This document shows, in pieces, positions 922 through 41,660 of a stretch of DNA of 64,000 bases (the stretch's first letter is position 1; each line of letters opens with the position of its first letter). Origin of the DNA: Chryseobacterium polytrichastri. Lineage in GTDB: Bacteria; Bacteroidota; Bacteroidia; Flavobacteriales; Weeksellaceae. Below the pieces are notes generated by a model, which was given only the letters and a program-made list of their open reading frames with translations, was not told the DNA's origin and ran no database searches. The stretch is taken from positions 1 to 64,000 of the forward strand of contig NZ_FRAV01000002.1 of NCBI RefSeq assembly GCF_900142445.1, in the 5' to 3' direction. The position numbers were made by a program, and so were the translations under genes.

Positions 922-1548
922 CTATTTTTTTCTACAATCATTAACCTTTACTGTTGTTAACGAATCAAGCTTTGGATTGCTTCCAAAAAAATTATATTGA
1001 ACAGAATTTCCATGATTAATATAAAGATCAATATATTTTGTATTGTTTTTTTCAATGAATCCAATCAATGAAACGCTAGGGGTCGGTTTTTTATTCTCAG
1101 TAATGTCAACTTGGGGAATTTCAACTTTTTCACCATTTTTATTCATGTAAAAATAATGATGATTAATTCCTCCGTCTTCTTTTGCAAAGAGAATTAAAAT
1201 TCCATCCTGTGGAAATTGATACGTTTTATTTTTCTCATTGAATTTTTCGCCGCAGTTTTCTTCGTAAATAATTCTTAGCGGACCTGAGTAATTTGTAGGA
1301 ACTATAAATTCTTTTCTTTTGAGGTATTTATAAATTTCTAATTGAAGAGAATTTACGGGTACATATAAAACTAACGGTAGTATTATACTCAATATCTTAT
1401 ATATAATTTTTATAGGAGAAATAATAACAAAAATACTTCCAATACAATACATTGGGATGGTAAAGAAAAATAAATAAAAATTATATGTACTGAGAATAAA
1501 ACTTATTATAATTAAAATTATTCCAATGTAAAATTTATTGAATTTCAT
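922..1548 (-). CDS. Hypothetical membrane-anchored protein, possibly DUF6843-like
   Basis: The protein is 208 residues. Residues 1-70 hold two or three hydrophobic segments (IILIIISFIL and IFVIISPIKIIYKILSIILPLVL regions). The rest is a soluble domain with a core around residues 82-125 (FIVPTNYSGPLRIIYE, then a GILILF strand). The pattern 'P..Y.GP..I.Y' resembles the Bacteroidota DUF6843 family, but this is from memory only. A likely topology is a membrane anchor with an exported beta-rich domain. No function can be given. Confidence 0.65.
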   Translation of the reverse strand: MKFNKFYIGIILIIISFILSTYNFYLFFFTIPMYCIGSIFVIISPIKIIYKILSIILPLVLYVPVNSLQLEIYKYLKRKEFIVPTNYSGPLRIIYEENCGEKFNEKNKTYQFPQDGILILFAKEDGGINHHYFYMNKNGEKVEIPQVDITENKKPTPSVSLIGFIEKNNTKYIDLYINHGNSVQYNFFGSNPKLDSLTTVKVNDCRKK

Positions 1549-1627
1549 TCTTTGTTTATGATTTATAGTGTTTAGTTTAAAGTAAGAAATAAATTGAAGA
1601 GTTGAGTTTTTGTATTTTGGTTTAGCT

Positions 1628-15459: not shown

Positions 15460-16194
15460 TTAATTTTTTACGGAATTAATAAAATCTATGGCTTTTATCT
15501 TCCAATCTTTATTTTGTAAAAGAATATTTACAAAGGCAGTTCCGATAATTCCGCCATCAGCTTTTTCCGTAACGTTTTCAAAATCTTGCTTTGATTTTAT
15601 TCCAAACCCAATCATAACAGGATTTTTCAATGGAAGAGAAGCTAATCTGGAAAGATAATCTTCATTTTTTAATACTGCATTTTCTTTTCCTGTTGTAGAA
15701 GACGAACTTACGGCGTATAAAAATCCTGAACTTAATGAATCCAGATATAATATTCTTTCGTCAGAAGTTTCCGGAGTTACCAAAAATGTGAAATTCAGAT
15801 TGTATTTTTCTAAAATTTTCTGATAATTTTTTTCGAATTCAATAGGCGGAAGATCGGGAATAATTAATCCTGAAACCCCACTTTCTGAACATTCTTTACA
15901 GAAGTTTTCAAAACCAAAACTTAAAACCGGATTGATGTATCCCATTAAAATAATAGGAATTCTGATTTCATTTTTAATCGATTTTAACTGTGATAGAAGC
16001 TTTTCGATGGTCATTCCATTTTTCAAAGCCATCTCATGAGCTTGCTGAATAACGGGCCCGTCTGCAACAGGATCAGAATAAGGCATCCCGATTTCCATCA
16101 TATCTGCTCCGGAATCCTGGATGAGTTGTATAATATCTGCAGTATCTTCCAATTGTGGAATTCCTGCGGTAAAGTATATGTTTAGTTTTTTCAT
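15460..16194 (-). CDS. trpA: Tryptophan synthase alpha chain
   Basis: The 244-residue TIM-barrel enzyme cleaves indole-3-glycerol phosphate and hands indole to TrpB. The catalytic acids are E34 and D45 in 'MEIGMPYSDPVADGP', equal to E49 and D60 of E. coli. The N-terminus is about 15 residues shorter than the enterobacterial protein. Its ATG overlaps the stop of the DoxX-like gene by four bases, so translation is likely coupled. It is the last gene of the trp operon. Confidence 0.96.
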   Translation of the reverse strand: MKKLNIYFTAGIPQLEDTADIIQLIQDSGADMMEIGMPYSDPVADGPVIQQAHEMALKNGMTIEKLLSQLKSIKNEIRIPIILMGYINPVLSFGFENFCKECSESGVSGLIIPDLPPIEFEKNYQKILEKYNLNFTFLVTPETSDERILYLDSLSSGFLYAVSSSSTTGKENAVLKNEDYLSRLASLPLKNPVMIGFGIKSKQDFENVTEKADGGIIGTAFVNILLQNKDWKIKAIDFINSVKN

Positions 16195-16733
16195 ATTTTT
16201 AAAATGTTTAATAATAATCCCACTCCCTCTTGTGCCAGCATCAATACAAATAAAAGGACAAGAATCAGGAGTATTCGTAAGACTATTTTTTTTCTCTGAA
16301 AACTGAAGTTGATTGAAGAACTTTTAATCATAGCAATCAGTTTTTCTTTATTCATAAAAAAGACTATGATGATAAGAATCTGATAGGTTATAGCATTGGC
16401 CATAGCTCCTCTGTGAACGTCATAAAAATAGTTTTGTAAAATGATATTGATCAAAATAGTTGATAATACCAGCCCACCAATAATTCTCGTTTTTGGAATC
16501 AAAAAAAGTAATGAACCGAGTATTTCAAATAGTCCTAAAATGACAGCATACGTTTTTGAATACGAATAAAATGCCCACATGATATCCATTCCCTGATAAG
16601 AAAAAAGAGGTCTTGAATATTCTGAAATTTCTCCAAATTGTGTAAATTTTGCGGCTCCGTAAGTAATCATATAAAATGATACGAAAATCACAAAAGACCA
16701 TTGTAAAGTATTGAGGAAGTCCTTTTTGATCAT
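16191..16733 (-). CDS. DoxX-like membrane protein inserted between trpB and trpA
   Basis: The 180-residue protein has four to five hydrophobic segments and the DoxX-type start 'YGAAKFTQFGEISEYSRPL', followed by 'ILGLFEILGSLLFLIPKTR'. DoxX-like proteins are inner-membrane proteins of poorly defined role, sometimes tied to thiol or quinone reactions. It overlaps trpB by one base and trpA by four bases, so it is translated with them. I know of no established role of DoxX in tryptophan synthesis. Confidence 0.8.
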   Translation of the reverse strand: MIKKDFLNTLQWSFVIFVSFYMITYGAAKFTQFGEISEYSRPLFSYQGMDIMWAFYSYSKTYAVILGLFEILGSLLFLIPKTRIIGGLVLSTILINIILQNYFYDVHRGAMANAITYQILIIIVFFMNKEKLIAMIKSSSINFSFQRKKIVLRILLILVLLFVLMLAQEGVGLLLNILKI

Positions 16734-17914
16734 TATTTTAAATTCTTCAGATAGGTTTCCATATCCTTATCACCACGACCGCTCAGGCAGATAACAACAA
16801 TATCATTTTCATTGAATTTCTTTTTGTCTAAAACTGCTAAAGCGTGCGAACTTTCTAAAGCAGGAATGATGCCTTCTAATTTGGTCAGTTCAAAAGCACA
16901 TTTTAAAGCTTCATCATCATTAATACTGAAAAATTCAGCACGTTTTTCTTTGAATAGATGTGCATGAAAAGGTCCGATTCCCGGATAATCTAATCCAGCA
17001 GAAATAGAGTGTGGTTCGATGACCTGTCCGTCTTCCGTTTGCATGACTAAACTTTTGCTTCCATGCAAAACGCCTAAAGTTCCAAGAAATGTTGTTGCTG
17101 CTGATTTTCCTGAATCAACTCCTAAACCTCCGGCCTCTGCGGCAATAATTTGTACGTCTTTTTCATTCACAAAGTGATAAAAAGTTCCTGCTGCATTGCT
17201 TCCACCACCAACACATGCAATGACGTAATCGGGATTTTGTCTTCCGATTTGTTCGTTAAGTTGCTCTCTGATTTCTTTTGAAATAATACTTTGAAATCTC
17301 GCTACCAAATCCGGGAAAGGATGCGGACCGACCACACTTCCAATAACATAATGAGTGGTTACTGAATTGTTGATCCAATCTCTTAATGCTTCGTTTACAG
17401 CATCTTTTAATGTTTTTGATCCTGAAGTGGCAGGAATAACTTCTGCACCCAGCATTTTCATTCTGGCAACATTGGGAGCCTGTCTTTGAATATCAACTTC
17501 ACCCATGTAAACAATACATTCCAAGCCCAATAAAGCACAAGCGGTAGCGGTGGCAACACCATGTTGGCCGGCTCCTGTTTCCGCAATAATTCTGGTTTTA
17601 CCCAAACGTTTTGCCAATAAAACCTGCCCCAAAGCATTGTTTATTTTATGCGCTCCTGTATGATTAAGATCTTCTCTTTTAAGATAGATCTTTGTATTGT
17701 ATTTTTTACTTAAATTCTTGGCAAAATAAAGTGGAGTAGCCCGTCCAACATAGTTTTTTAACAGATCTTGATATTCAGTTTGAAAATCTTCTGATTCTAT
17801 GATTTCGAGGTAATTTTTTTGTAATTCTTCTACATTTGGGTAGAGCATTTCCGGAATAAAAGCACCTCCAAATTCTCCATAATATCCGTGTTCATCGGGG
17901 TTTTTATAATTCAT
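16733..17914 (-). CDS. trpB: Tryptophan synthase beta chain
   Basis: The 393-residue PLP enzyme condenses indole with serine. The PLP lysine is K90 in '[17 protein letters not shown]', the phosphate loop is '[10 protein letters not shown]', and '[13 protein letters not shown]' is conserved. The length is typical. It forms the alpha2beta2 complex with TrpA, although the genes are split by the DoxX-like gene. Upstream is the GNAT gene, 15 bases away. Confidence 0.97.
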
Positions 17915-17929
17915 TTCTTTCTTCTTTTT

Positions 17930-18469
17930 TTATTGTAATAAATAAGCGTTGTTTTCAGAACTTAACTGATATAAAAGTTGCTTTTTCTCTTCTGATAGAT
18001 TAAAAATTAAAATATCATCATCATCGGATGGTATCCATTCGGAGCCACTTTTCTCTTGAATAGATTTAGCTTTGTTATGTAAAATACTGATCTCACATTT
18101 ATCATAGAAAGGTCTTAACTCTGTCGCACAAAAACCAATACTTTCAAGATTTCTTTCGGTAATATTATCGATACAATACTTGATCAATTTTTTACCATAT
18201 CCTTTTTTCTTGTGTGCAGAAACCAATCCTACTACTTCTGCAAAATGATAGTGTTGGTTAGCAATTTCTAAAACGAAATCAAAATTAAGGCGCATAAGAG
18301 TTAATATTTCTCCTTCTGAATCAAAAAGAATATGAAATTCAGAGTCTTTAAAGAAAGAGCGGAAATAGGTAGAGTCCATAGAGTCCCATTCTGTAACCTC
18401 CCAAAGATTCAATATAATTTTTATTTCGTTTTCTGTTAGCTCATTCGGCTTTTTAATTTGATACTTCAT
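17930..18469 (-). CDS. GNAT-type acetyltransferase in the trp operon
   Basis: The 179-residue protein has a GNAT core, with 'VVGLVSAHKKKGYGKKLIKYCID' giving the acetyl-CoA loop (Q/R-x-x-G-x-G/A variant KKKGYGK) and 'NLESIGFCATELRPFYDKCE' as the later part. The substrate is unknown. It overlaps the preceding 174-residue ORF by 17 bases and lies 15 bases before trpB, so it is inside the trp transcript. It may act on an unrelated small molecule. Confidence 0.75.
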   Translation of the reverse strand: MKYQIKKPNELTENEIKIILNLWEVTEWDSMDSTYFRSFFKDSEFHILFDSEGEILTLMRLNFDFVLEIANQHYHFAEVVGLVSAHKKKGYGKKLIKYCIDNITERNLESIGFCATELRPFYDKCEISILHNKAKSIQEKSGSEWIPSDDDDILIFNLSEEKKQLLYQLSSENNAYLLQ

Positions 18470-18977
18470 CTTTTAAGCGATTAATAAAAGCAATGTTATA
18501 ATTGTGTTGTTGCTTGGTTATTAGTTTTTTATGGTGTAGTAAATTTATTTTACTAATCAAATCAATTAAAGTGGTTAATTCTAATTTTGAGTTGTACATT
18601 GTAATGGCAATCTCCAGATTGTCAATTAAAAAGTAGGAATCAAAATTTTCATATGATAAAAAAATCTTTGCATAAATGTTTCCAAAATCATAAGTAACAT
18701 TTGATTTTACTCTATTATCTAAAAATTTATCAGAAATAATAACAAGATAATAGCTGTTCCATAAATTGATTTTATCAAAAAAATCTTGTGTATCTTTTTC
18801 ATCATAAATTTTAATGATGTTGATAAAATCAGTTAATAGTCCACCAAGCTCCCAATGCTCAAAATTATTGTCATTTTTAGATATAAAATTATACAAAGTT
18901 TGAACTCTTTTATTTCCAAATTTGGGTGGAAATAGTCTTTTATAGAAATTTTTTCTTATCAAATGTATGTTTATCAT
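18453..18977 (-). CDS. Hypothetical protein in the trp operon
   Basis: The 174-residue protein is highly AT-biased, helical, and rich in Asn, Lys, Asp and Tyr, without a signal peptide. Examples are 'FEHWELGGLLTDFINIIKIYDE' (shortened: HWELGGLLTDFIN) and a basic C-terminus with 'ITKQQHNYNIAFINRL'. I recognise no family. It overlaps the GNAT gene by 17 bases and comes 93 bases after trpF. The pair looks like a small cargo module inserted between trpF and trpB; a toxin-antitoxin or immunity role cannot be supported. Confidence 0.6.
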   Translation of the reverse strand: MINIHLIRKNFYKRLFPPKFGNKRVQTLYNFISKNDNNFEHWELGGLLTDFINIIKIYDEKDTQDFFDKINLWNSYYLVIISDKFLDNRVKSNVTYDFGNIYAKIFLSYENFDSYFLIDNLEIAITMYNSKLELTTLIDLISKINLLHHKKLITKQQHNYNIAFINRLKDEVSN

Positions 18978-19070
18978 CCCGTTTTTTATCTATTTACTTT
19001 AAATGATTCTTTTGTGTTTTAATTTTAATATAAAGTTATTAATTTATTTTAAATGAGTCCCTTGGGGGTT

Positions 19071-19709
19071 TTATTGGTACAAAGCTTTAAATTTTTTAAT
19101 TTTCTCAACATCTTTAATTCCGGCTTCTAATTCAAATTTTGAATTAATATCTAAAGCAAAGGGTTTTTGATTTAAAATCTCCATATTATGGATGTTCTCT
19201 TCTGAAATTCCGCCACTTAAAAAATAAGGAAGGGGGATTTTAAATTTATTCAACAGAGTCCAGTCAAATTGTTTTCCTGTTCCTCCAAATGCATTACTGT
19301 CTGTATCGAAAAGCAGATAATTGATTTTAGATTTTAGATTATCAATTTTAAATGCTAAATCTTCGTTTTGGTCTCCGATTCTGAATACTTTAATAATTCC
19401 AGTTTCAGGATCCAGTTTTTCTTTTAATTCTGAAATAAAATCTTCACTTTCATCACCGTGAAGCTGTATAAAATTCAGATTTGCTTTTTGGGTTATTTCT
19501 AGTATTGTATTAACCTCTTCATTCACAAAAACGCCTACTTTTCCTTGATGGTTAATTTTTGAAATATCTTCTAAACTCAAGTGATTCAGAACATATCTCG
19601 GTGATTTTTCATAAAATATAAAACCAAGAAAATCTGTGTTCATGGAAATTAATTCCTGAATTTGATCAAGCTTTGTTAATCCGCAGACTTTTAATAGGGG
19701 AGTGTTCAT
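19071..19709 (-). CDS. trpF: Phosphoribosylanthranilate isomerase
   Basis: The 212-residue TIM-barrel enzyme performs the Amadori rearrangement in tryptophan synthesis. The catalytic Cys is C9 in 'LLKVCGLTKLDQI', and the catalytic Asp lies in 'LLFDTDSNAFGGTGKQFDW'. The phosphate loop is 'LSGGISEENIH'. It follows trpC by 26 bases, and is a separate protein, not fused to TrpC as in enterobacteria. Confidence 0.95.
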   Translation of the reverse strand: MNTPLLKVCGLTKLDQIQELISMNTDFLGFIFYEKSPRYVLNHLSLEDISKINHQGKVGVFVNEEVNTILEITQKANLNFIQLHGDESEDFISELKEKLDPETGIIKVFRIGDQNEDLAFKIDNLKSKINYLLFDTDSNAFGGTGKQFDWTLLNKFKIPLPYFLSGGISEENIHNMEILNQKPFALDINSKFELEAGIKDVEKIKKFKALYQ

Positions 19710-19735
19710 TATTTTATTTACTTGAAATTTTACTA

Positions 19736-20515
19736 CTAAGCAGTTATATTCGATATAAATTCTTCAAACGTATTTGCAGGGTTTTTATTTTTCATAAAAT
19801 ATTCACCCATTAAAAATCCGTCAAATCCTTTTTCTTTTAAATAGTTAAAATCTTCAATACTATAAATTCCACTTTCTGCAACAGATAAAACGTCTCTTGG
19901 AAGTAGATTTTTTAAATTGACAGAATGCTGAAGATCCACTTTAAAATCTTTTAAATTTCTATTGTTGATGCCAACCAAATCAATTTTTGAGTTGAAATGA
20001 TTCAATTCTTCTTCCGTATGAATTTCCAATAAAACTTCCAATCCTAATTCATGAGATAATTCGGTGAATTCCTGAACCTGATTGGGAGAAAGGCAAGAGG
20101 CTATCAATAAAATAACATCAGCACCCATGCTTTTTGCTTCATAAAACTGATATTCATCTACCATAAAATCTTTTCGTAAAATAGGAATGTTGATGTGATT
20201 TCTTACCTGTAAAATGTCTTCAAAACTTCCGCCAAAAAAATCTTTATCCGTCAAAATTGAAATTCCACTTGCTCCGAATTTTTCATACGCTGAAGTAACC
20301 TCTAAAGGGGAAGCCTGATCATTAATGATTCCTTTTGATGGAGATTGTCTTTTAAACTCGGCGATAATTCCGCTTTTATTTTTTACAGATTCTTTTAATG
20401 AAAAAGTTTTTCTTCCAAAAAATGGTGAATCTTTCAATTTTTCAATAGAATTTTTTGATTTTGAAACCTTAATCTCTTCTTTTTTTCTTTCTATGATTGT
20501 ATCTAATATTGTCAT
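19736..20515 (-). CDS. trpC: Indole-3-glycerol phosphate synthase
   Basis: The 259-residue enzyme closes the indole ring. Landmarks are 'FAEFKRQSPSKG' (here IIAEFKRQSPSKG) near residue 50, 'PILRKDFMVDEYQ', 'LEVLLEIHTEEEL', 'GINNRNL' and 'VAESGIYS'. The start at 20515 gives the usual 'MTILDTIIERKKEE'; an ATG three codons upstream (20524) is also possible. It sits between trpD and trpF in the operon. Confidence 0.95.
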   Translation of the reverse strand: MTILDTIIERKKEEIKVSKSKNSIEKLKDSPFFGRKTFSLKESVKNKSGIIAEFKRQSPSKGIINDQASPLEVTSAYEKFGASGISILTDKDFFGGSFEDILQVRNHINIPILRKDFMVDEYQFYEAKSMGADVILLIASCLSPNQVQEFTELSHELGLEVLLEIHTEEELNHFNSKIDLVGINNRNLKDFKVDLQHSVNLKNLLPRDVLSVAESGIYSIEDFNYLKEKGFDGFLMGEYFMKNKNPANTFEEFISNITA

Positions 20516-20581
20516 TGTATGCATGTTAAAAATAGATTCTTCATTACGCCTTGCTTCGTTCTGAATGATACTGTTAAAAAA

Positions 20582-21568
20582 CTATCCCAATAATAATTCC
20601 AAACTTTTCAATGCTTTTCCACTTTCTAAGCTTTCTTTTGCCAATAAAAGACAGTCGTCATAACTTCCGAATTTATGAGTATGATGTAAGGCAACCGAAG
20701 CATTAGCCAGAACTACAGAGTTTTGCTGCTTTGTACCTCTTCCTTCCAAAATATCTCTGAAAATTTTAGCAGATTCATGAGTCGTTTCTCCTGCTTTTAT
20801 GCTTTCATGAGAAATGGAATCAAAGCCTAAGTCTTCAGCAGAATAAATTTCTTCACCTTTTTTGGTGATAATTTTACTGTCGTGAGTCAAACTTATTTCA
20901 TCGTATCCGTCTAAACTATGAACCAAAATGAAATCTCGCTCATCTTTTTGTAGTAGATATTGATAAATTCTGGCAATTTCAAGATTATAAACGCCAATCA
21001 TTGAAAATTTTGGCTTTGCAGGATTCACCAAAGGTCCTAAAAGATTAAAGAAGGTTCTTAATCCCAGTGATTTTCTTAGGAGTCCTACAGATTGAAGTGC
21101 AGGATGAAAATAAGGAGCATGTAAAAAACAGATGTTGGCTTTCTCCAGATCTTCATTCAATTTATCAGAATTATTTTTAAATTCATACCCTAATTCCTCT
21201 AATACATTGGAAGAACCGGTGGTGGTAGAAGCCCCATAGTTTCCATGTTTCGTTACTTTTTGTCCGGCTCCTGCAACTACAAAGCTGGTTAATGTTGATA
21301 TATTGATGGTATTTTTTCCATCACCTCCTGTGCCTACGATATCTATAGCATCATCAGAATCTATATGTATAGGAACTGCCATTTGTAGAAGAGCTTCTCT
21401 AAAGCCTTCCAATTCTTTCAGGGTAATATTTCGCATAAGAAAAATAGTAATGAAAGCAGTAACTTCTGCAGCATTAAATTTATTCTGAGCAATCTCAATC
21501 ATAATTGCCTTAGCTTCAGATTTGGATAAGGTGTGATGATTAAATAAGTATTCAAGGATTTCTTTCAT
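20582..21568 (-). CDS. trpD: Anthranilate phosphoribosyltransferase
   Basis: The 328-residue protein has the glycine-rich 'DIVGTGGDGKNTINIST', 'VTKHGNYGASTTTGSSN', and 'RTFFNLLGPLVNPAKP', all typical of TrpD. I chose the ATG at 21568, which gives 'MKEILEYLFNHHTLS', as in relatives. The longer frame begins with TTG at 21610, overlapping the trpG stop as TTGA, so translational coupling to trpG from that TTG is possible. Confidence 0.95.
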   Translation of the reverse strand: MKEILEYLFNHHTLSKSEAKAIMIEIAQNKFNAAEVTAFITIFLMRNITLKELEGFREALLQMAVPIHIDSDDAIDIVGTGGDGKNTINISTLTSFVVAGAGQKVTKHGNYGASTTTGSSNVLEELGYEFKNNSDKLNEDLEKANICFLHAPYFHPALQSVGLLRKSLGLRTFFNLLGPLVNPAKPKFSMIGVYNLEIARIYQYLLQKDERDFILVHSLDGYDEISLTHDSKIITKKGEEIYSAEDLGFDSISHESIKAGETTHESAKIFRDILEGRGTKQQNSVVLANASVALHHTHKFGSYDDCLLLAKESLESGKALKSLELLLG

Positions 21569-21606
21569 TTGTGGAGTTTTTATCGTTGAGGGAGATTCTA
21601 GTGTTT

Positions 21607-22200
21607 TCAATGTAAAAGGAAATTTTTAATGATGGCTTCTCCATCGGGGGTTAAAATACTTTCTGGATGGAACTGAACACCGTGTACATCATACGTTTTA
21701 TGCTGTAGTGCCATGATCATTCCGTCTTTGTCTACTGCGGTAATTTCAAGGTCTTGAGGGAAATTATCCGGATCTACAGCCCAACTGTGATATCTTCCCA
21801 CTTCTAAACCACTTTCTATATTTCTAAAAAGTTTAGTATCAGTTTTTACTAATTCTGCCGAAGTTGCTACTCCGTGAAAGATTTCGGAAAGGTTAATTAA
21901 ACTTCCTCCAAAAGCTTCGGCAATGGCTTGCTGACCAAGGCAAACCCCCAGAATACTTTTTGTAGGAGCATATTTTTTAATGACATCTAATAAAATACCT
22001 GCTTCCTCAGGAATTCCTGGTCCTGGCGAAAGAATTATTTTATCATATTTATTGATCTCTTCCAAAGTGATTTGGTCATTTCTCACTACATCAACTTCCT
22101 GATTCATTACTCTTTCGATGATTTGAACAAGATTGTAGGTAAAGCTATCGTAATTATCAAAAACTAGTATTTTAGTTTGTTCTTCTTTATTGTTATCCAT
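21607..22200 (-). CDS. trpG: Anthranilate synthase glutamine amidotransferase subunit
   Basis: The 197-residue class I glutaminase has the nucleophile elbow 'GVCLGQQAIAEAFGG' and 'GVQFHPES' with the catalytic His and Glu. It supplies ammonia to TrpE. N-terminal 'VFDNYDSFTYNLVQ' is standard for TrpG/PabA. It is 26 bases downstream of trpE. Because no pabA was seen here, it could serve p-aminobenzoate synthesis as well. Confidence 0.96.
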   Translation of the reverse strand: MDNNKEEQTKILVFDNYDSFTYNLVQIIERVMNQEVDVVRNDQITLEEINKYDKIILSPGPGIPEEAGILLDVIKKYAPTKSILGVCLGQQAIAEAFGGSLINLSEIFHGVATSAELVKTDTKLFRNIESGLEVGRYHSWAVDPDNFPQDLEITAVDKDGMIMALQHKTYDVHGVQFHPESILTPDGEAIIKNFLLH

Positions 22201-22226: not shown

Positions 22227-23654
22227 TTAGAAATTATCAACTAATTTTTCTGCTTTTTCAACTGCTTTTTTCAAGGCGTTCAACTTATTGTTGACCTCTT
22301 CCAATTCACTTTGAGGATTCGATTTTGCAACCAATCCGGCACCTGCCTGATAATATAAGGTGTTGTTTTTGCTTAAGAAAGTTCTGATCATAATGGCTTG
22401 ATTACAATCTCCATTTAATCCGATCATTCCGATGCAACCTCCATAATAACCACGTGAATCTTTTTCATATTGATTGATTAATTGAAGCGCTCTGTGTTTG
22501 GGCGCCCCGCTTAATGTTCCTTGTGGGAAGGTGGTAGCCACCATTTCAAATGGATTTGTATTTTCACGCAAATCTGCAGTCACTTCACTTACCATATGGA
22601 TAACATGAGAGAAAAGCTGAATTTCTTTTAATTTGGTAACCGTTACATTTTTTCCCAATTTTCCAAGATCATTTCTTGCTAAATCTACCAACATGGTATG
22701 TTCTGCATTTTCTTTGGCATCTGCTTTTAATTCTTCAATCGACTGAAGATCAGTTTCAAAATGCCCTGTTCTTTTAAATGTACCGGCAATTGGGTGAATG
22801 ATGGCTTTGTTATTTTTGATAATTAATTGACTTTCAGGGCTTGATCCGAATAATTTATAATTTCCATAATCGAAGAAGAATAAATAAGGAGAAGGGTTGA
22901 TGTTTCTCAACGCACGATATACATTGAATTCATCACCTTGAAATTTCTGTTCGAATCTTCTGCTCAACACCAATTGGAAAACATCTCCTCTCATGCAGTG
23001 TTTCTGCGCTGTGTTTACGAGATCAAGATATTCTTCATTTGTAATATTAGAGGTCTCCTGCCCGTTTTTCTTGAAAGGGTAGACTACCGAATTTTGATTT
23101 TTAAGAATGTTTTCTAGTAAATAAAGTTCAGATTTTAGTCCTTCAATTTGATTTTCAATAATGTGCATTTCATCATTATAATGATTAATAGCAATCACAT
23201 ATTGATACAATCTGTAACGAAGAATCGGGATCTCAACTTCTGGGCTTTGCGGCTTAAAACTTACATTTTCAAAAAACTGAACAGCTTCAAAACTTGTGTA
23301 TCCAAAAAGACTTTGAGCAGTTTGCTCAATAGAATCATTTGTTTCTTCGCATTCAAAACTTTTAGTGAAATCTTCAAAAATATCGGCTACTTTATGATCT
23401 ATAATAAATTGTTTTATAGGGTCTTCTCCCGGAAGTTTTATTTCAAACTCATTCAGGTTTTTAATTTCAATTCCTGCGACAGCGTTGATGGCTATAAAGG
23501 AGAAATTATTATCAATATTTTTAGAATCTGAACTTTCCAAAAGAATCGTATCTCTGAACTTATCACGGATCTGTAGGTAGATATTCATCGGAGTTTGTAG
23601 ATCTCCCAATGTTTTTTTAGAAACGGTTTTTATTTTTATTTTTTTGCTAAACAT
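22227..23654 (-). CDS. trpE: Anthranilate synthase component I
   Basis: The 475-residue chorismate-utilising enzyme has the C-terminal signatures 'SPYLFFFDYG', 'GSSPESQLI', 'PIAGTFKRTG', 'ARNDLGKLG' and 'PQGTLSGAPKHRALQ'. The ATG at 23654 gives 'MFSKKIKIKTVSKKTLGD'. The in-frame ATG at 23717 lies inside the attenuator hairpin and is rejected. It is the first structural gene of the operon and its expression is controlled by the attenuator upstream. Confidence 0.96.
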   Translation of the reverse strand: MFSKKIKIKTVSKKTLGDLQTPMNIYLQIRDKFRDTILLESSDSKNIDNNFSFIAINAVAGIEIKNLNEFEIKLPGEDPIKQFIIDHKVADIFEDFTKSFECEETNDSIEQTAQSLFGYTSFEAVQFFENVSFKPQSPEVEIPILRYRLYQYVIAINHYNDEMHIIENQIEGLKSELYLLENILKNQNSVVYPFKKNGQETSNITNEEYLDLVNTAQKHCMRGDVFQLVLSRRFEQKFQGDEFNVYRALRNINPSPYLFFFDYGNYKLFGSSPESQLIIKNNKAIIHPIAGTFKRTGHFETDLQSIEELKADAKENAEHTMLVDLARNDLGKLGKNVTVTKLKEIQLFSHVIHMVSEVTADLRENTNPFEMVATTFPQGTLSGAPKHRALQLINQYEKDSRGYYGGCIGMIGLNGDCNQAIMIRTFLSKNNTLYYQAGAGLVAKSNPQSELEEVNNKLNALKKAVEKAEKLVDNF

Positions 23655-23689: not shown

Positions 23690-23721
23690 AAAAAAAGACT
23701 TCAACGAAAATCGTCAAAGTC
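23690..23721 (-). terminator. trp attenuator terminator hairpin
   Basis: On the minus strand, GACTTTGACG ATTTT CGTTGAAGTC forms a 10-bp stem (two G-U pairs) followed by seven T residues. It lies between the leader peptide and trpE. The left arm can alternatively pair with 23777-23787 (TCGTCGGGTCT) as an antiterminator with one bulge. Confidence 0.85.
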
Positions 23722-23754
23722 TATATATTGTTGTATATTATTTCTGCTGTTGAT

Positions 23755-23823
23755 CTAGCAACATGATAATAACTTCAGACCCGACGAAGAGTTTGAAAGC
23801 CACCACCAAATATTGTTGCTCAT
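23755..23823 (-). CDS. trpL: trp leader peptide with three consecutive Trp codons
   Basis: An ATG at 23823 opens a 22-codon frame ending in TAG at 23755-23757. Codons 6-8 (23800-23808) are TGG TGG TGG. The peptide starts MSNNIWWW and ends LLSCC. Ribosome stalling at these codons when charged tRNA-Trp is scarce would free the segment at 23777-23787 to pair with the terminator's left arm, so trpE is transcribed. With enough Trp the ribosome moves on and the terminator forms. This is leader-peptide attenuation as known from enteric bacteria, in a flavobacterial setting. Confidence 0.9.
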   Translation of the reverse strand: MSNNIWWWLSNSSSGLKLLSCC

Positions 23824-23836
23824 ATTAAACATGTGA

Positions 23837-23844
23837 CAAATTTA
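23837..23844 (-). promoter_or_regulatory. TAnnTTTG -7 box of the trp operon
   Basis: TAAATTTG on the minus strand ends 13 bases before the leader ATG at 23823, giving a very short 5' leader of roughly 5 to 8 bases. No strong -33 TTTG is visible upstream. Confidence 0.65.
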
Positions 23845-24155
23845 GATAATTTTTTTAATATAAAAATGAAAAAAAAGAGAAAATAAAAAAACTTAAAATT
23901 GTTAGAGTTATTTCAGCTGGTTTAATTATTTCTTTAATTCTTCCGTTTTGATTCTGTGATTTTTGCTATTATTAGGTTTTGTATGATTTTATGAAGATAA
24001 AATATATTCATTGATGAATTCTTTATTTGTTTTTATCTGCTTCATATTTAATCTTTGCTTTTAATTTTTCTGTGATATTTTCCATTTAAAGAAAGCTTCC
24101 TTAAGAAATATCTTTAAAGTAGAGATTTGTCATGAGTTTAAAAGTTTATTTTTTA
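23845..24155. other. AT-rich spacer with no gene
   Basis: The stretch between the divergent trp promoter and the lipoprotein promoter is very AT-rich with stop codons in all frames. I see no RNA gene or repeat in it. Confidence 0.5.
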
Positions 24156-41369: not shown

Positions 41370-41660
41370 GTCATTGCGAGAAGCGAAGCGACGAAGCAAT
41401 CTCAAATACGATTTTTAATATAAAGTTTGTCATCCCGTAGGAATCTACACACGAATCTTTCCAGACTATTTTCTAAAACTATGCTTAGATCCTTTTAGGA
41501 AGACAAAGTATGTGTTGAGTTTTTATGACGATAATTTAAATCCAGACAAACACTCTAGCCCCGATTGCAACGACATCCTTTTTCTGAATTGGCCTTGAAA
41601 AAAGCGTTGGCGAAAAAGATATAGTGGAAAGCGGGATTAAGCTCCTAAAAAATTTAAAAA
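41370..41660. repeat. Composite of dispersed spacer repeats
   Basis: The gap holds three sequence pieces that look like scattered flavobacterial spacer repeats: CATTGCGAGAAGCGAAGCGA, then TCATCCCGTAGGAATCTACA (a close relative is at about 58328), and from about 41558 a block with TAGCCCCGATTGCAACGACA and GAAAGCGGGATTAAGCTCC. The last piece is imperfectly palindromic. No gene is seen. Confidence 0.55.

Follow-up and report, generated by a model that had tools for sequence, protein, structure and literature searches.

A probable Trp-peptide attenuator with an apparently leaderless start upstream of trpE in Chryseobacterium and other Weeksellaceae

Organization of the trp operon and its leader

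The window analysed in this study is a stretch of 64,000 nucleotides from Chryseobacterium polytrichastri (contig NZ_FRAV01000002.1 of assembly GCF_900142445.1, positions 1 to 64,000), and it carries a trp operon on its minus strand, with trpE as the first controlled gene (Table 1). The operon genes were named from their Pfam domains and gene order, and three genes within the operon have no Pfam match at E 1e-5, two of them between trpF and trpB (17930-18977) and one between trpB and trpA (16191-16733). The TrpE protein shares 98% identity with its counterpart in Chryseobacterium sp. ERMR1:04 (Weeksellaceae, Flavobacteriales), and as regards its start, the alignments to most relatives among the best 80 of 119 TrpE loci begin at residue 1-5. 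Elsewhere in the window, a Flavo-1 RNA (RF01705) was recorded at 41553-41642 on the plus strand with 62.1 bits.

Table 1. Features of the trp operon and its leader, in positions of the window
Feature	Positions	Strand	Basis or remark
trpE, first controlled gene	22227-23651	-	Pfam Anth_synt_I_N and Chorismate_bind; start ATG 23651
Downstream operon: trpG, trpD, trpC, trpF, two genes without Pfam match, trpB, one gene without, trpA	15460-22200	-	Pfam
Promoter -7 box TAAATTTG, Bacteroidota form TAnnTTTG	23839-23846	-	Read in the sequence
Predicted transcription start, A of the leader ATG	23832	-	Box position in F. psychrophilum
Leader peptide frame trpL, 25 codons and TAG (stop 23757-23755)	23755-23832	-	Peptide MFNMSNNIWWWLSNSSSGLKLLSCC
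Regulatory Trp codons TGG TGG TGG	23800-23808	-	80 of 80 leaders
1:2 hairpin, 5' side (basal 23820-23814, outer 23808-23797, inner 23795-23789)	23789-23820	-	Fold and pair counts
1:2 hairpin, 3' side (inner 23782-23776, outer 23775-23764, basal 23763-23757)	23757-23782	-	Fold and pair counts
Strand 2, 5' arm of the antiterminator, within the leader frame	23777-23787	-	Near-invariant codons; family covariation with strand 3
Strand 3, common to antiterminator and terminator	23711-23722	-	Fold and pair counts
Strand 4, 3' arm of the terminator	23696-23707	-	Fold and pair counts
Seven-T run of the intrinsic terminator, first T also paired	23690-23696	-	Sequence

The leader in front of trpE contains a frame with cognate codons, an intrinsic terminator, an antiterminator that is mutually exclusive with it, and a 1:2 hairpin that holds the Trp codons, which are structural elements of the attenuator class. 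A preliminary description of this DNA had reported three consecutive TGG codons, an antiterminator pairing of 23777-23787 with 23711-23722 and a promoter box closely upstream of the frame, and all of these were recovered on the minus strand, the antiterminator folding with one bulged base. Its terminator followed by seven T was likewise found, but the stem comprises 12 bp with a 3-nt loop (23722-23696) and not 10 bp at 23697-23721, and the Trp-coding frame that it described is real, though the conserved frame has 25 codons from the ATG at 23832 rather than 22 codons from 23823. The enteric-type parts that it named stand in the order given, yet it had passed over the 1:2 hairpin (23820-23757) that the enteric scheme requires.

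Conservation of the leader within Chryseobacterium

The genus was represented by the best 80 of 119 TrpE loci, the titles of which are all Chryseobacterium except for L037, a MAG titled Weeksellaceae bacterium. One locus (L077) was excluded from the genus counts because its upstream DNA is cut off, and the window together with the remaining 79 loci forms the set of 80 leaders used here. A WWW leader was observed in all 79 of the 79 loci with upstream DNA, so that the Trp codons, whose conservation among relatives had been proposed as a check, are conserved in 80 of 80. In these 80 leaders from the best 80 of 119 loci, the start codon is ATG in 79 and GTG in one, the distance from the start of the box to the start codon is 12 nt in every case, and the distance from the box to the TGG codons is 36 nt in 76, 33 nt in two and 39 nt in two. 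Since the former distance is constant while the latter takes values of 33, 36 or 39 nt, the frame varies by whole codons only.

These spacings bear on the idea that the terminator is controlled by a small molecule or a protein, with the Trp frame being incidental. Ligand-controlled terminators are common, which lends this idea some plausibility; however, the three TGG codons are in frame with the start codon in all 80 leaders and shift by whole codons only, Rfam gives no riboswitch or T-box match in the leader stretch, and no TrpR match was detected in the genome by a search that matched 4 of 14 control genomes, two of them above the cut-off. We consider such control extremely improbable.

The codons that follow the Trp codons are almost without variation. 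Within the same set (best 80 of 119 loci), TCA, TCG, TCG, GGT and CTG are identical in 80 of 80 leaders, TCT is kept in 79 and AAC in 77, and the C-terminal half of the peptide, SNSSSGLxxLSCC, is near-constant across the genus. The trpE genes of these loci contain 223 columns with an invariant residue (at least 78 rows; M and W excluded) and none with an invariant codon among them, and all four bases were seen in 63 of the 66 fourfold columns. As the leader codons are frozen whereas those of trpE are not, the leader is maintained at the nucleotide level.

With regard to the pairings, the 1:2 and 3:4 hairpins are paired in 95.4% of the cells of the genus alignment (A1), as against 28-53% when slid, and they show 79 two-sided changes, counted as cells, compared with 22.4 in shuffled alignments, a number which none of the 500 shuffles reached. 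The number of pairs with a two-sided change was 5, with a mean of 4.3 in the shuffles and 167 of 500 reaching it, and is thus not in excess. The antiterminator 2:3 is paired in 98.6% of the cells of A1, with no two-sided changes, as its pairing hardly varies within the genus. The match list of a covariance model built from the leader (R1) includes 99 genus genomes, and 98 of these match at E <= 2.7e-25; the exception, G273, gave E 0.0017 and is a genome without trpC.

Predicted leaderless start

In Flavobacterium psychrophilum, the promoter box is described as lying at -12 to -5 of the start sites (PMC9723704). When this rule is applied to the box found here, exactly 12 nt from the start codon, transcription is predicted to begin on the A of the ATG, and the leader peptide is most likely leaderless. 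The same source describes the group as lacking Shine-Dalgarno sequences and puts leaderless messages at 5.5% of those mapped in F. psychrophilum. The leader provides a clear example, in such a group, of a regulatory frame that is conserved and apparently leaderless.

Translation of the same attenuator might instead begin at the second ATG (23823), behind a short 5' untranslated stretch, and yield the 22-codon peptide. This ATG is indeed in frame in the window, but the codon at its place is ATG in only 32 of the 80 leaders (best 80 of 119 loci), whereas the first start codon is found in all 80 at its fixed distance from the box, and we regard a start at 23823 as unlikely.

Outside the genus, the distance from the box to the start codon was determined in 55 other family loci, with values of 12 nt in 5, 13 nt in 34 and 14 nt in one, and no box so near the start codon in 15. 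Inspected by eye, 14 of these 15 show a more distant upstream box and additional sequence ahead of the ATG, and one (L208) shows no box. Extra sequence between the box and the leader ATG was noticed at L151, L155, L157, L190, L194, L205, L209, L213 and L216; some of these insertions contain a small stem, e.g. GACAG...CTGTC, and at L151 a short upstream frame seems to terminate on the leader ATG.

Distribution and covariation across the family

R1 matched 194 of the 246 family genomes at E <= 0.01, distributed across 22 of the 33 genera. The best hits were retrieved from 60 family genomes, and 59 of them are Trp-rich leaders situated upstream of trpE; at the remaining hit (L169, E 1e-4) both trpE and such a leader are absent. 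Of four family genomes examined that gave no match to R1, two have no trpC and two, with trpC, carry WWW leaders that R1 missed. One of these leaders, MKNLVSNNNWWWTSQLRK, precedes trpE, and the other, MKTILNISWWWCFQFQKL (L245 in G074), stands about 1.36 kb upstream of it. At the latter locus the genes are rearranged, with a trpB-like end directly upstream of trpE, between the WWW leader and trpE.

Beyond the family, the matches to R1 became weak, with 101 of 296 genomes at E <= 0.1 at the level of the order and 25 of 296 at E <= 0.001 at that of the phylum, both counts including the family. We examined 18 places of weak match (L171-L187 and L189), which were hand-picked and not random, five of them being second matches in genomes of the window's family; trpE and a WWW leader were found together in 8 of the 18 and were not in the other 10. 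Both were also present at L188, which was fetched as an RF01692 site and not as a match to R1, and among three phylum-level loci (L231-L233) only L233 displayed them.

For the study of covariation across the family, an alignment (A2) of 56 leaders, including that of the window, was made with 1:2 and 3:4 as guides and without regard to 2:3. It leaves out L226-L229, which belong to the same genus, and L169, and L170, a 100-base filler region, was not used. In A2 the antiterminator 2:3 is paired in 92.3% of cells, compared with 34-53% when slid, and shows 40 two-sided changes as against 13.7 shuffled (none of 500 shuffles reaching this number), with 5 such pairs as against 3.8 (13 of 500). The terminator 3:4 is paired in 95.7% of cells and shows 47 two-sided changes as against 17.0 (0 of 500), in 6 pairs as against 2.2 (0 of 500); for both pairings the changes are counted as cells and not as independent events, the rows being related. 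At one position of strand 3, strands 2, 3 and 4 vary together, as T-A-T in 27 of the 56 leaders and C-G-C in 12. In genus g30, strand 2 reads CGCTGA opposite TCAGCG in strand 3, where the window has CGTCGG and TTGACG. The covarying stems that the preliminary description had asked for in relatives are thus seen, for 1:2 and 3:4 in the genus and for 2:3 and 3:4 in the family.

Across 59 family loci, all three reading frames are used over the strand 2 motif GTCT (or ATCT), in 47, 11 and 1 of the loci respectively, and the leader peptides of other genera differ, e.g. WWWHSNSFRV and WWWLQTLCWV. Because strand 2 is frozen in its nucleotides within the genus and is read in differing frames elsewhere, it is the RNA rather than the peptide that is conserved, and selection at the level of the peptide was rejected as the reason for the constancy of SNSSSGLxxLSCC. 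This also concerns the view that the peptide or the terminated leader RNA acts chiefly in trans, in the manner of peTrpL and rnTrpL of Sinorhizobium meliloti, with the control of trpE being secondary. The near-constant half of the peptide and the precedent of S. meliloti, the trp leader frame of which is likewise described as leaderless (PMC7298713), would agree with it, but the constancy sits at the nucleotide level and other genera obtain other peptides from the same RNA. A chiefly trans function is quite unlikely, though the leader RNA itself may have some action in trans.

Folding and the position of the ribosome

The 1:2 region (23838-23755) folds with z = -4.2, 2 of 200 shuffles being equally stable, and the terminator region with z = -3.7, a stability that none of 200 shuffles equalled. 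The antiterminator region alone shows no unusual stability (z -1.4 and -1.6, with 19 and 15 of 200 shuffles as stable), and as its own fold z is unremarkable, the support for this pairing comes from comparison.

A simple partition-function model was used in which the ribosome masks the RNA from 12 nt before to 15 nt after the first base of the P-site codon; the zeros that it gives with the ribosome over strand 2 are a product of the masking itself and carry no evidence. When the ribosome sits on any of the three Trp codons and strand 4 is still absent, the modelled probability of 2:3 has a mean of 0.83 and a minimum of 0.70 over the 80 genus leaders (best 80 of 119 loci); the ribosome-free value for the window is 0.00, and the mean for the 80 leaders is 0.55. 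For the family leaders with the ribosome on a Trp codon, the probability is at least 0.5 in 46 of 56, and with the ribosome on Trp codon 1 it is below 0.5 in 10 of 56. With the ribosome on the stop codon, strand 2 stays free (0.87 in the window; mean 0.77 across the 80 leaders), since the frame extends past strand 2 and places the stop about 20 nt further on; the stop codon is found in or at strand 2 in 11 of the 56 family leaders.

Once strand 4 is present, 3:4 prevails in the model at equilibrium at every ribosome position (means 0.94-0.95), so that the choice between the two folds must be kinetic. The equilibrium fold was rejected as a proof of switching, because no switch is visible in it when strand 4 is there. 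The published model for Escherichia coli is described as also resting on timing, yet it calls both conformations similarly stable (PMC1183508).

Proposed mechanism

With reference to the parts observed, their conservation and the covariation of both alternative pairings, the leader very probably controls the trp operon by ribosome-mediated attenuation of transcription; the interpretation offered in the preliminary description is strongly backed by comparison of the leaders of relatives. We infer that translation would be coupled to transcription and that the attenuator would respond to tryptophan in the following manner. A ribosome would load at the 5'-terminal AUG, with no untranslated leader before it. 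When charged tRNA-Trp is scarce, it would stall at the three TGG codons and cover the 5' arm of the 1:2 hairpin, so that strand 2 could pair with strand 3 while strand 4 is still unmade, and RNA polymerase would continue into trpE. When tryptophan is plentiful, the ribosome would move past the Trp codons, strand 2 would be covered by it or held in 1:2, and the 3:4 terminator would form and end transcription about 38 nt ahead of the trpE start codon.

A leader of this kind could alternatively govern the translation of trpE and not its transcription. Leaders that control translation exist in other systems; against such action here, the 3:4 hairpin ends in seven T about 38 nt short of the trpE start codon and hence does not cover the start, and we judge control of translation to be very unlikely.

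Tandem leaders, a His leader and variation in the stop position

Two genomes of the same order (G036 and G051, of family f2) carry two Trp leaders in tandem before trpE, at L011 (1-394) and L012 (about 1286-1612, minus strand). The two leaders at L011 read MQKINTIWWWQSKL and MLNNKINNWWWPVLTQYAGQSCYNII; a terminator-like hairpin with a T run follows each, and both are sub-threshold matches to RF01692. The third sampled genome of family f2, G283 (68% complete), shows a single leader at L240, and further weak matches were noticed on other contigs of G036 and G283.

In the window's own genome, a His-rich leader, MKPNFLTLHHYYHHLC, was observed upstream of hisG (L239, on G000:C63), with a TACATTTG box upstream and a AACCGTCTGAGTAATAGACGGTTTTTTT terminator downstream. 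Judged from these motifs, it is likely to be a second leader-peptide attenuator of this genome, and on account of an untranslated stretch of about 13 nt it is not leaderless.

On a more tentative note, the Weeksellaceae may time the trp attenuator by leaderless initiation, in which the ribosome would bind the 5'-terminal AUG as it emerges from RNA polymerase, and may tune the basal level by the position of the stop codon, which lies in strand 2 and would mask it in some genera and lies seven codons beyond in Chryseobacterium, while the related family would, in two of its three sampled genomes, add a second complete attenuator in series. We hold this wider scheme to be possible but doubtful. 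Because the stop position varies naturally, the contribution of ribosome release to the setting of basal expression can be tested.

Comparison with known systems

Nearly all sampled Chryseobacterium genomes carry a Trp-peptide leader of attenuator design, and such leaders are widespread in the family. Attenuation at a trp leader is not a first for flavobacteria, as the RNA family RF01692 and statements on F. psychrophilum precede this study. RF01692, named Bacteroid-trp, originates from Weinberg 2010 (PMC2864571), and its Rfam entry bears the title 'Bacteroidete tryptophan peptide leader RNA'. In F. psychrophilum, of the same order but another genus, Bacteroid-trp is placed upstream of the trp operon and likened to the E. 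coli leader (PMC6414381), and strong clues for attenuation by upstream leader peptides are described at its amino-acid operons (PMC9723704). For leader-peptide attenuation in Chryseobacterium itself, the open-licence literature of PubMed Central yielded nothing beyond a broad review.

RF01692 resembles the present leader in being a cis-regulatory leader with a Trp-rich peptide upstream of trpE in Bacteroidota, and the two members examined (L187/L010 and L188/L009) have three TGG codons within one long hairpin, followed by a terminator. They differ from the window in the sequences of strand 2 and the terminator, and the start-site rule applied above gives them a 5' untranslated leader of 14 nt. 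RF01692 gave no match in the leader stretch of the window up to E 10, and its cut-off (49 bits) was passed by none of 36 genus genomes and by 2 of 59 relatives overall; membership in RF01692 was rejected as an explanation on the ground of the absent match and the 36 genus genomes. This form of leader has thus been missed by the public RNA library. Below the threshold, RF01692 touches the trp leader in at least 2 of the 36 genus genomes (G002 and G028, at 23-26 bits), and a weak R1 match (E 0.004) falls on an RF01692 site in G037, of the same order. A distant common origin of the two leader types is likely.

The leader of E. coli, trpL (RF00513, Trp_leader), which gave no match in the leader stretch of the window up to E 10, shares with it the competing strands, the Trp codons in frame and a terminator with a U-run before trpE. 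It differs from the leader of the window, which has a predicted leaderless start and a strand 2 placed within the frame, the stop codon following about 20 nt downstream, and whose genome gave no TrpR match. In Corynebacterium glutamicum, the trp operon is described as preceded by a leader peptide with three Trp (PMC4046766). The trpL (rnTrpL) of S. meliloti is comparable in its frame starting from the 5' end of the transcript, as predicted here, in its position before trpE and in its attenuation, but it belongs to another phylum and functions in trans are described for it (PMC7298713). The Chryseobacterium leader leaves the known mechanism of attenuation unchanged and is a new case, with an apparently leaderless start, of a known type of switch.
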